43,091 bases of DNA from Bacilli bacterium (GTDB lineage Bacteria > Bacillota_I > Bacilli_A > RFN20 > CAG-826), in NCBI GenBank assembly GCA_017445245.1, contig JAFSUM010000030.1:1-43091 (forward strand), written 5' to 3'. Position 1 is the stretch's first letter. Each line of letters opens with the position of its first letter. Below, one piece after another: positions 2 through 4,874 of the stretch. Both the position numbers and the translations under genes were made by a program. The notes beneath the pieces were generated by a model. It made no database searches. It was not told where the DNA came from and was given only the letters and a program-made list of their open reading frames with translations.

Positions 2-1888
2 GGCTCCACTTTCCAATTCGGGTTCCATTATGTGCTAGGCGGATACGATGTTTGGCTAGGCGAAATCCTCTTATCGCTGTTTTTCTTGTTGCTATTCGGT
101 GGCATTTGCCTGCTGAAAAGGAAAATAACGGCGGGGGTCCAGTCGGGCCTAGTCTTAATATTCATATCTTTGATTGTGGCCGGCTTTATTGTCGCCGCGA
201 TCATGCATAAGGGCGGCATCGAGTCCTATAAGCCGGACTTCGCCAGTAACGGAAGCAGCGAATTCTCTCAGGTCGTTGGGGTTATCGGCATGATGCCCTG
301 GGCCTTTATTGGGTTTGAAAACATCTCCCACTCTTCCAAAAACTTCAAATTCAGGCACAAAAACGTCTTTAGGGTGCTGATCGCTTCCGTCATCGTCACC
401 GCGGTTATCTATATTTTGATTTGCATGCTGTCCATCAGCGTTTTCCCCAGCGAATACGCCAACTGGTATGAATACCTGACTTCTTCGTCCTCGCTAAGCG
501 GCTTAGACGGCATCCCCGCCTTCTATGTCATGCATCACTATTTAGGCACGTGGGGATTGGTGATGTTCGTCATCGCCTTAAGCGCCATCATCATGACGAG
601 CTTGATCGGCAATATCGTCGCCTTATCCAACTTAATCCAAACGATGTCCGAAGACCGCGTTTTCTTTAAGGGTTTTGCCAAATTGGATAAAAACGAGGCC
701 CCGCGAAACGTCATCATCTTCATTGTTGTCGTGACGGCGTTGATGCTATTTTTCGGCAGGGTATTAATCGGTTGGATCGTCGATGTTAATACCTTTTGCG
801 GCATCATTGTTTATACCTATATCTCCGCGATTAGTTTTGCCCAGGCCAAAAAGGACAACAACCTAGAAGGCCTCATCGCGAGCATAGCGGGTTTGGTGAT
901 TGGCGCGGGCTTTGCCATTTCCGTCGTGGCCAGCAGCTTCGTTAATGCCGATTATCTGGCAAAAGAATCCATCTTCATCTTCATTGTTTGGGCGGCAATC
1001 GGCTTTGGATATTACGGCTTTTTGGTCAAAAAGGACAAAAAGAGGATGTTCGGCAATTCCATGATTGCCCTGTTCGGCTTATTCGTCCTGATCGTTTTCG
1101 GCATCGCTTCTTGGGTGTTCAAAACCGCGACCGCGACTAGCGAGGTCAATATAGGCGAAATCACCTTTGCCCTCATCTTTAGTTCTTTATTGATCATCGG
1201 GACGCAACTAGTTTTCTTCTTTGTGTTCTCAACGGTCAAGAACCGAGAAATCAAGGTTCAGGATAAGTTATTTTATGGCATGGCCACGATGGTCGAAGGA
1301 AGAGACAAATCCACGGGCGGTCACATCAAAAGAACGAGCGACGTCGTCAAGTTCCTGGTTCAAGAAATGATGGACGATCCGTTATTGAACATCAGCTCCT
1401 CCTTTTCTCAAAGCATCATCAAAAGCGCCCCTATGCACGATTTGGGCAAAATAACGATCGATGACGCGATATTGAGGAAACCGGGCAAATTCACCGACGA
1501 AGAATATGCCATTATGAAAACCCATCCCAAAGAAGGTTCCGTCATCGTCAATCAAATCTTGGAAGACGCCGTCGATAAGAGCTTTGAAGAAATTGCGGTC
1601 AACATCGCCCATTATCACCACGAAAGGTGGGATGGCAAAGGTTATCCTAACGGCCTGAAAGGCGACGAAATACCCCTAGAGGCCCGCATTATGGCTATCG
1701 CAGACGTTTATGATGCCCTGGTTAGCAAAAGAGTATACAAAGACGAATTCTCCTTTGACGACGCCAACAACATCATTATTTCCAGCATGGGGAAACAGTT
1801 CGATCCGGGCTTGGAAAAGTATTATGTCCGAGCCAGAAGCAAAATCGAAAACTATTATTCCGAGTTAAAGAATAGGAAAGAGAAATAA
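2..1888 (+). CDS. APC-family permease fused to HD-GYP domain (5' truncated)
   Basis: The frame is open to the window edge, so the start is missing; the first possible internal start is a GTG at 32. The first ~400 visible residues are a string of hydrophobic segments with the APC-superfamily stretch [20 protein letters not shown] followed by a long membrane segment, as in amino-acid/polyamine transporters. From about residue 415 (counted from 32) to the end is an HD-GYP domain: [10 protein letters not shown], the HD pair in MHDLGKI, then [11 protein letters not shown] and [16 protein letters not shown] domains hydrolyse cyclic di-GMP or related dinucleotides, and the metal ligands and GYP motif are intact. 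I infer a membrane protein whose cytoplasmic phosphodiesterase may respond to a ligand bound by the transporter part. Whether it still transports cannot be told. Confidence is high for both domains. Confidence 0.85.
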
Positions 1889-3437: not shown

Positions 3438-4874
3438 TCAGGGGATACGGGTAAACAAGCTGTCGATCGTGAGGGATTGGTTAACGTAATTGCTGTAGCT
3501 GTTTTCCTTTAACCCGGAGACCGTGATGAACGTTATTTGGATCGAGGAGCGCTTCCCGCTGCGTTTGGCCAACGCTTTTTCCTTGTTTTCGATATCCCTC
3601 ATGACGTCCGCGTCGATTTCGAAATCGAAGCGCGAGAACTTCATCTCACAGAGGTGGAGGACTTTGTCCTTCCTCTCGATGACCAGGTCGACTTGGGCGC
3701 CTTGGTCGTCCCCTTCCGCCTTTTCATCAAACCCGTAGGCCTCGTAGTCGATGGCGAAGATTCCCAGATTGAAGCGAACCGCGTCCAGATGCGTCCGGCA
3801 GAGCAGTTCGAAGGAGAAACCCTCCCAGGCGGACGTCGAAGGCGTCAGGAAGGCCTTCGTGAAATACCCCTTCCGCTGCTTCGGCTTGTCCTTCACGAAG
3901 CGCAGATAGAAGAGGGAGAAGAAGTCGCAGAGCTGGAGGAGCTCCGTTTTGCGCTCGAAATAGTGCGTGTTTCTTCTCACCAACCCCGCATCAACGAGGT
4001 TATCAAGCATGTCGGATAGTTCGCCGTTATTTGGAATCTTAAGTCTGTCGGCGATTTCTTCGAAGCTAAACCCCTTCCTTTTCGTGGCGAGCAGTTCGAC
4101 TATGTTGATGTAACTCCGGTCCTTTTTGAAAAGCGTGTCGAACAGGTCCCTGAACTCGTTCTTGAGCTTTGGCTTGGGCCCAAAGAACAGCTCGTCGATA
4201 TTGCGCAGAGGGTCATAGGCGCCGTCGAACATGCGAAGATAATAGGGAATCCCCCCGACGCACATGTAGATGACCGCGATGTGGTAACGGGAATAGCGAA
4301 TCCCCCTCGAAGCGAAATAGCGCTCCGTCTCCTCCAGTGTGAACGGAAGCAGGTGGAGCTCCACGGTCTTGCGGTTATAGAGGCCGCCTTTGTTGCGGAG
4401 GATCTTCTCCGTGATCCAGGAGGTCGCCGAGCCCGCGATGACGAAGACGAGGTTGTGGACGCCGAGCCCGTAGTCGTTCCAAAAATGCTCGAACGCCTTG
4501 AGGAACCCGCTTTTATGGGTGTCGAGCCAGGGCATCTCGTCGAAGAAAATCACGGTTTTCCTATCCTTTGGTAAAGAAGAGATGTATTCCTGCAAGTAGA
4601 AGAAGGCCGTCGGCCAGTCGGATAGCTCGCCCGCGTCTTTCCCCGTTCTCCTCAGCAGCTCAAGGCGGAAATAGTTGAGTTGGCTCTTCTTGTCTTCCTT
4701 GTAGGCGCCCGTGATTTTGAAGTCGTATTCGTCGTCAAAAAACTCGTTGACCAAATAGGTCTTGCCGACCCTTCTCCTGCCGGTAACCACGACGAGCTGC
4801 GCCTCTTCCTCTCGAAGGCAGGCGGCCAGCAACCTGCACTCTTCTTCGCGGGCTATAATGTTCCCTTTGCTCAT
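3438..4874 (-). CDS. AAA ATPase with C-terminal DUF234 nuclease-like domain
   Basis: 478 residues. Walker A is GRRRVGKT (residues 32-39) and Walker B is VIFFDEMPWL (about 108-117), followed by a winged-helix region (IVELLATKRKGFSFEEIADRL, about 260-310). The C-terminal DUF234 part contains QVDLVIERKDKVLHLCEMKF, which looks like the D...ExK core of a PD-(D/E)XK fold. Such proteins are common, often multicopy, in gut bacteria and archaea and are poorly characterised; defence or mobile-element maintenance is often suspected. The ATG is the first in frame; the ribosome binding site is weak. It follows the unknown gene at 4953 in the same direction, with a hairpin between them. Cytoplasmic; function unknown. 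Confidence 0.85.
   Translation of the reverse strand: MSKGNIIAREEECRLLAACLREEEAQLVVVTGRRRVGKTYLVNEFFDDEYDFKITGAYKEDKKSQLNYFRLELLRRTGKDAGELSDWPTAFFYLQEYISSLPKDRKTVIFFDEMPWLDTHKSGFLKAFEHFWNDYGLGVHNLVFVIAGSATSWITEKILRNKGGLYNRKTVELHLLPFTLEETERYFASRGIRYSRYHIAVIYMCVGGIPYYLRMFDGAYDPLRNIDELFFGPKPKLKNEFRDLFDTLFKKDRSYINIVELLATKRKGFSFEEIADRLKIPNNGELSDMLDNLVDAGLVRRNTHYFERKTELLQLCDFFSLFYLRFVKDKPKQRKGYFTKAFLTPSTSAWEGFSFELLCRTHLDAVRFNLGIFAIDYEAYGFDEKAEGDDQGAQVDLVIERKDKVLHLCEMKFSRFDFEIDADVMRDIENKEKALAKRSGKRSSIQITFITVSGLKENSYSNYVNQSLTIDSLFTRIP

Follow-up and report, generated by a model that had tools for sequence, protein, structure and literature searches.

In the HD-GYP phosphodiesterase PA4781, the sensory part of the protein is a receiver domain. 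In PmGH, a second c-di-GMP enzyme of this kind, the same position is taken by a GAF domain (PMC4159591), and in DvhD, an HD-GYP protein that has lost its metal ligands and acts as a c-di-GMP receptor, by a dCache sensor (PMC13090378). Transporter folds, in turn, are found as the input of other signaling proteins. In the SLC5-STAC kinases CbrA and CrbS/MxtR, a LeuT-fold transporter domain lies N-terminal to the signaling part in one chain; CbrA combines an SLC5/SSS domain of 13 transmembrane (TM) helices with a cytosolic STAC bundle, and a transceptor model has been proposed for it (PMC13022988), while a review of the SSS family reported that, “at first glance”, there are no SSF + HisKA proteins in Gram-positive bacteria (PMC7918813). 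Ks-Amt5 couples a trimeric Amt fold to a histidine kinase without a PAS, HAMP or STAC linker (PMC5764959), and the 5TMR/S-component receptors join another transporter-related membrane fold, that of the ECF S-components, to kinase, GGDEF and EAL outputs (PMC11109136). How the transport cycle of a LeuT-fold protein is converted into a signal is an open question both for CbrA and for eukaryotic transceptors, and the inputs of most c-di-GMP enzymes in gut Firmicutes are unknown.

Here, we describe a gene at the start of the window (the whole stretch of DNA analyzed, 43,091 nucleotides, contig JAFSUM010000030.1 of a Bacilli bacterium assembly) in which an APC-type permease and an HD-GYP domain share one chain, hereafter APC-HD-GYP. 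Our preferred reading, to which we assign a probability of roughly 0.6, is that the product is a permease-derived membrane receptor which gates a c-di-GMP-hydrolyzing HD-GYP domain, probably in complex with a partner protein of three TM helices (3-TM) encoded beside it. By analogy, the protein would work like CbrA or Ks-Amt5, yet it lacks the defining features of both families, and its fold is unrelated to that of the 5TMR/S-component receptors. A permease wired to c-di-GMP turnover would tie external nutrients directly to the surface or biofilm programme of rumen bacteria.

An initial annotation of the window had proposed this fusion, with its HD and HHExxDGxGYP motifs, and the open frame, the Pfam matches and the positions of the motifs all bear it out (Table 1). 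The frame, cut short at its 5' end by the contig start, encodes 628 amino acids and gives matches to AA_permease_2 at window residues 22–328 (E 2.5e-22; 79.8 bits against a gathering score of 27) and to HD_5 at residues 462–603 (E 3.1e-28, far over the curated cutoff). The rest of the gene was located in the window's own genome by a search with the module of the orthologues: the start of contig C17 (G000:C17:494-1, reverse strand) encodes the N-terminal 164 residues. C17 and the window start share 135 bp, with a single mismatch (134/135 identical), and joining the two contigs gives a complete gene of about 748 codons.

Table 1. Positions of the features discussed in the text, in window coordinates unless a contig is named.
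Feature	Position	Strand	Basis
APC-HD-GYP gene	2..1888	+	single open frame, 628 of about 748 codons, 5'-truncated at contig edge
APC permease core, before TM4 to TM12	2..1051	+	window aa 1–350 = full-length orthologue residues 121–470; Pfam AA_permease_2
TM6 unwound segment of expected ligand site, PWAxxGxE	296..319	+	P, W, G, E invariant across all aligned fusion types (alignment A3)
TM13, first helix of extra hairpin	1064..1132	+	AlphaFold2 helix 475–497 (L005 numbering), outside APC fold
TM14, one long helix into HD-GYP, likely signal helix	1151..1297	+	AlphaFold2 helix 504–552
HD-GYP domain	1298..1855	+	HD_5; nearest solved PmGH 4mcw, PA4781 4r8z
HD dyad, MHDLGK	1436..1441 (H and D codons)	+	sequence; invariant in 12 orthologues
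HHExxDGxGYP motif	1616..1648	+	sequence; HHE, DG, GYP invariant in 12 orthologues
c-di-GMP-I riboswitches, two (L209)	G000:C35:54734-54809 and 49321-49396	+ and -, respectively	above gathering score

A wrong join between a permease gene and a neighboring HD-GYP gene, which the annotation itself had named as the outcome that would undo its claim, might be suspected when the window begins at a contig edge and the contigs of several metagenome-assembled genomes (MAGs) end within the operon. Besides the overlap of C17 with the window start, a search for the architecture returned full-length orthologues of 740–750 amino acids in at least 12 other, independent assemblies from rumen and gut metagenomes, which are 60–95% identical to the first alignment row across permease, junction and HD-GYP, and the record of Lachnospiraceae bacterium RM5, which is not labeled a MAG, holds an APC-HD-GYP gene that is independent of these. 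Because of these orthologues and the RM5 gene, we exclude an assembly join, the probability of which we consider negligible. Within the window's order, the gene is present, whole or in part, in 13 of 279 genomes. The contig ends that fall inside the two-gene operon (window position 1, G052:C16, G074:C4, G104:C41 and G180:C34) suggest that the locus varies between strains or contains repeats. The plasmid records searched gave HD-GYP or partial matches only, and we took proteins of 430–450 amino acids matching query residues 270–620 for membrane HD-GYP proteins of another kind, not for APC fusions, and set them aside. Elsewhere in the window, an AAA ATPase of the ATPase_2 family lies at 3438–4874 on the reverse strand (Pfam E 3.6e-15).

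Turning to the membrane part, the AlphaFold2 model of an orthologue has 14 TM helices at moderate confidence (pLDDT 73), and its residues 5–473 match AdiC (3ob6_A; Z 38.0, rmsd 3.2 over 418 residues), which places the protein in the LeuT-type APC fold; other APC amino acid transporters are also matched, and the structural matches include KimA with c-di-AMP. By sequence, the APC part gave no match in the PDB when searched directly with phmmer, while a profile search matched CAT1, GkApcT and AdiC. The fold and the TM6 motif region are thus shared with the SLC7-like AdiC, CAT and LAT transporters, at about 16% identity, whereas a GWG replaces their small-residue TM1 motif and both an extra hairpin and a cytosolic enzyme have been added. 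The description of a membrane core followed directly by HD-GYP has to be amended: both parts are real, but the membrane part of the model consists of 12 APC helices plus a separate hairpin, TM13 and TM14, which lies outside the APC fold (the VIA alignment to APC transporters stops near residue 473). In the model, TM14 leads straight into the HD-GYP helix at residue 556, and neither the model nor Pfam gives a STAC, HAMP or PAS domain in the protein. This sets it apart from CbrA, since its Pfam family is AA_permease_2 and not SSF, the membrane hairpin of the model leaves no room for a STAC four-helix bundle, and the output is HD-GYP; it likewise differs from Ks-Amt5, as Pfam finds no Amt domain and an APC fold is joined to an output of dimerizing kind.

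The nearest solved sequences to the HD-GYP domain are PmGH (4mcw, E 2.9e-33) and PA4781 (4r8z, E 5.8e-30), with V-cGAP3 also among the nearest. As in PmGH and PA4781, the catalytic residues are conserved: the HD dyad, HHExxDGxGYP and the metal-ligand His and Asp residues are all present, and every residue essential for hydrolysis by PmGH is kept (D183, H189, H221, D222, K225, H250, H276 and H277), as are D305 and D308. In PmGH, alanine substitution of any metal ligand other than E185 or D305 essentially abolishes activity, which also requires D183 and K225 (PMC4159591); the equivalents of the latter two, in RDxxTGxH (where the Asp precedes the first metal His by six residues) and in HDLGK, are found in 12 of 12 aligned orthologues. 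The third-metal ligand Glu185 of PmGH is replaced by Ser (Val in L013), so that the domain falls outside the trinuclear subgroup and a two-metal site is likely; Glu185 is not needed for membership of the HD-GYP phosphodiesterase family as a whole, and its loss in PmGH reduces but does not abolish hydrolysis (PMC4159591). Judging from these intact motifs, the domain is predicted to be a c-di-GMP phosphodiesterase. That it might instead act on another cyclic dinucleotide (e.g. 3'3'-cGAMP), or be a noncatalytic scaffold, with c-di-GMP not being the output, is an idea to which the proximity of V-cGAP3, a cGAMP phosphodiesterase, and the replacement of Glu185 lend something; we nevertheless consider it improbable, as the sequence is slightly closer to those of PmGH and PA4781, both of them c-di-GMP enzymes, all PmGH-essential residues are kept, and the genome contains c-di-GMP-I riboswitches.

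The rest of the c-di-GMP machinery is also encoded in the window's genome. Nine GGDEF matches, at least two of them with an intact GGDEF/GGEEF motif, answer the annotation's question of whether GGDEF proteins are present and dispose of the possibility of a genome without a cyclic dinucleotide cyclase; in addition, there are four HD_5 matches and an EAL-like segment visible in the sequence beside one GGDEF, while no PilZ match was found in this genome, which is 74% complete. The two riboswitches precede predicted exported proteins with GSxAWF-type N termini and without a Pfam or NCBIfam match. Two proteins of the riboswitch locus have relatives (32–47% identity) that adjoin stand-alone 3-TM HD genes in two further genomes (G220 and G212), in neighborhoods that also contain GGDEF and GGDEF-EAL genes (the latter by Pfam in G212), which hints that the 3-TM module family may act on surface proteins via c-di-GMP.

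The idea of a transceptor formed by a single protein, which we consider likely to be right in outline, is probably incomplete, as both a 3-TM HD partner gene and a wider fusion family had gone unnoticed. In the window's genome, the partner gene lies directly upstream of the APC-HD-GYP gene, with a 4-bp ATGA overlap, and encodes a protein of 288 amino acids in which about three TM helices are combined with a degenerate, HD-GYP-like domain. The latter keeps HDxG, HHE and the metal-ligand positions and has GYY instead of GYP, while the lysine of HDxGK is often absent. The nearest solved fold is that of DvhD, from which it differs in that its metal-ligand positions are kept. At 12 of the 14 loci of the window's clade with upstream sequence, the partner is found within -4 to +25 bp (the exceptions being L013 and L105), and in four genomes (G052, G104, G180 and G074) a contig end truncates the partner gene, such that its neighbor there may simply be unassembled. 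When the 3-TM part alone was searched against 255 neighboring frames, it matched only the APC-HD-GYP partners and two kinase proteins, both from distant genomes, one immediately upstream of an APC-kinase gene (G564) and one a few signaling genes upstream of such a gene (G873), so that here, too, the output of the 3-TM partner is that of the permease fusion, kinase with kinase. Of the 15 genomes of the order that carry an APC fusion, 14 also have the module, compared to 10 of the remaining 264 (Fisher p 2e-16, inflated by the shared ancestry that accounts for part of the co-occurrence), which shows association and not a complex; four genomes (G220, G216, G212 and G071) have the module without an APC gene.

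Taking these observations together, we propose that the APC core would bind a small extracellular solute, and that the rocking movement of the APC fold would pass through the extra hairpin and along the continuous TM14 helix to a dimeric HD-GYP domain, altering its rate of c-di-GMP hydrolysis. The protein would probably do so in complex with the cotranslated 3-TM protein, the degenerate HD domain of which may pair with or regulate the catalytic one, and the signal would reach the c-di-GMP-I riboswitches that precede the predicted surface proteins. The class of ligand, the enzyme activity, the direction of regulation, the formation of a complex, and the loss or retention of transport are points that we infer.

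The same APC module is found in proteins with five output architectures, being fused to HisKA-HATPase-REC (a hybrid histidine kinase), GGDEF, GGDEF-REC-GGDEF, GGDEF-EAL or HD-GYP, and the HD-GYP fusions of Lachnospiraceae RM5 and G779 stand on a branch separate from that of the window's protein. Many of these fusions came to light when genomes of Clostridia and other groups were searched with the module. Ten fusions are carried by seven of 25 genomes chosen through the loci of the HD-GYP search, and fused frames of 738–979 amino acids by seven genomes of a 391-genome sample of the class of Lachnospiraceae RM5. When 40 permease domains were placed in a maximum-likelihood tree, the fusions all fell into a single clade (100/100), separate from the free-standing permeases; within this clade, the c-di-GMP-type outputs form one subclade that also contains one kinase. 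AU tests, for which we defined the groups with the tree already in view, reject a single clade for HD-GYP (p 0.0008), for GGDEF (p 0.0056) and for the kinase (p 5e-41). Thus, the permease module has been retained through repeated changes of output, which is the behavior of a sensor module.

This exchange of outputs also bears on a reversed arrangement, in which a working amino acid permease would be opened or closed by an HD-GYP domain that senses c-di-GMP. Such regulation has parallels in KimA, on which c-di-AMP acts and which is among the structural matches, and in DvhD, where an HD-GYP domain is a c-di-GMP receptor (PMC13090378). We find it rather implausible for this protein, given that the metal ligands lost in DvhD are kept and that the module also carries kinase and diguanylate cyclase outputs, which produce signals and do not read them.

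The initial annotation knew of no characterized protein with this pairing, and our search of the literature for APC permeases fused to HD-GYP, GGDEF or a histidine kinase found no description in open-access papers, an absence that is not proof, and a permease-derived bacterial receptor family with interchangeable outputs is apparently undescribed so far. Given that one and the same module is joined to a kinase, a cyclase or a phosphodiesterase, the conversion of a LeuT-fold transport cycle into a signal could be addressed directly in this family. It is testable because the kinase type is found in Eubacterium ruminantium FB3002 and the HD-GYP type in Lachnospiraceae RM5, both named strains, the records of which are not labeled as MAGs. 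We tentatively put forward, with some doubt, a broader proposal in which these proteins represent a widespread receptor class, where APC and 3-TM subunits form a heteromeric sensor and matching cytosolic outputs (HD with HD-GYP, kinase with kinase) are exchanged together.

The receptor reading gains strong, if indirect, support because the module is shared by five outputs, forms one clade, and is conserved in both unwound segments of the expected ligand site, with the PWAxxGxE segment of TM6 (p 0.0015) and the GWG segment of TM1 (p 0.02) being more conserved than random core columns. The small residue between the TM1 glycines that is typical of, but does not define, the APC family (Thr in GkApcT, Ala in CAT1) is Trp in every row of alignment A3 except L138, which has Phe. 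We considered this Trp as a hallmark of sensors and rejected it, because free-standing permease relatives also have it, so that it marks a subfamily and not sensing. The ligand of the APC core is most likely an amino acid or a related compound; because Trp replaces the small residue of the solved transporters, the bound compound may be something other than an ordinary amino acid.

These segments are also relevant to whether the APC core still transports, such that the transport cycle, and not just binding, would drive the HD-GYP domain, as proposed for CbrA. CbrA both transports histidine and signals (PMC13022988; PMC7096432), and the conservation of the core segments fits such a dual function. 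Ks-Amt5, on the other hand, is a permease turned sensor, showing that transport can be lost (PMC5764959), and the Trp in the TM1 site is unusual in comparison to solved transporters, even though free-standing relatives share it. We regard such a dual function as less likely, if far from negligible, and favor a receptor that would gate HD-GYP upon solute binding.

The surroundings of the wider fusion family contain a number of further signaling genes. In G768, a genome with the title Eggerthellaceae (Actinomycetota), the APC module is joined to GGDEF-EAL (L128), which indicates that the family may cross phyla. A solute-binding lipoprotein adjoins a 1461-amino acid APC-GGDEF-REC-GGDEF frame (L131/L151, G761), and a similar solute-binding protein (SBP_bac_1) is found near an APC-kinase gene (L163, G054); a conserved solute-binding neighbor was suspected and not used, since no such family reached the three-locus threshold in neighbor clustering. 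In Eubacterium ruminantium FB3002, an SBP_bac_3-PAS-GGDEF protein (L149:1907-5311) adjoins the APC-kinase gene, and at another locus a stand-alone HD protein (L158:5302-5892) lies directly downstream of an APC-GGDEF gene. Finally, proteins of REC-GGDEF-EAL type recur near APC fusions (L157, L159, L148, L152 and L160), and L149 and L157 also encode a short protein that looks like a histidine phosphotransfer domain, which together suggests a phosphorelay to c-di-GMP.
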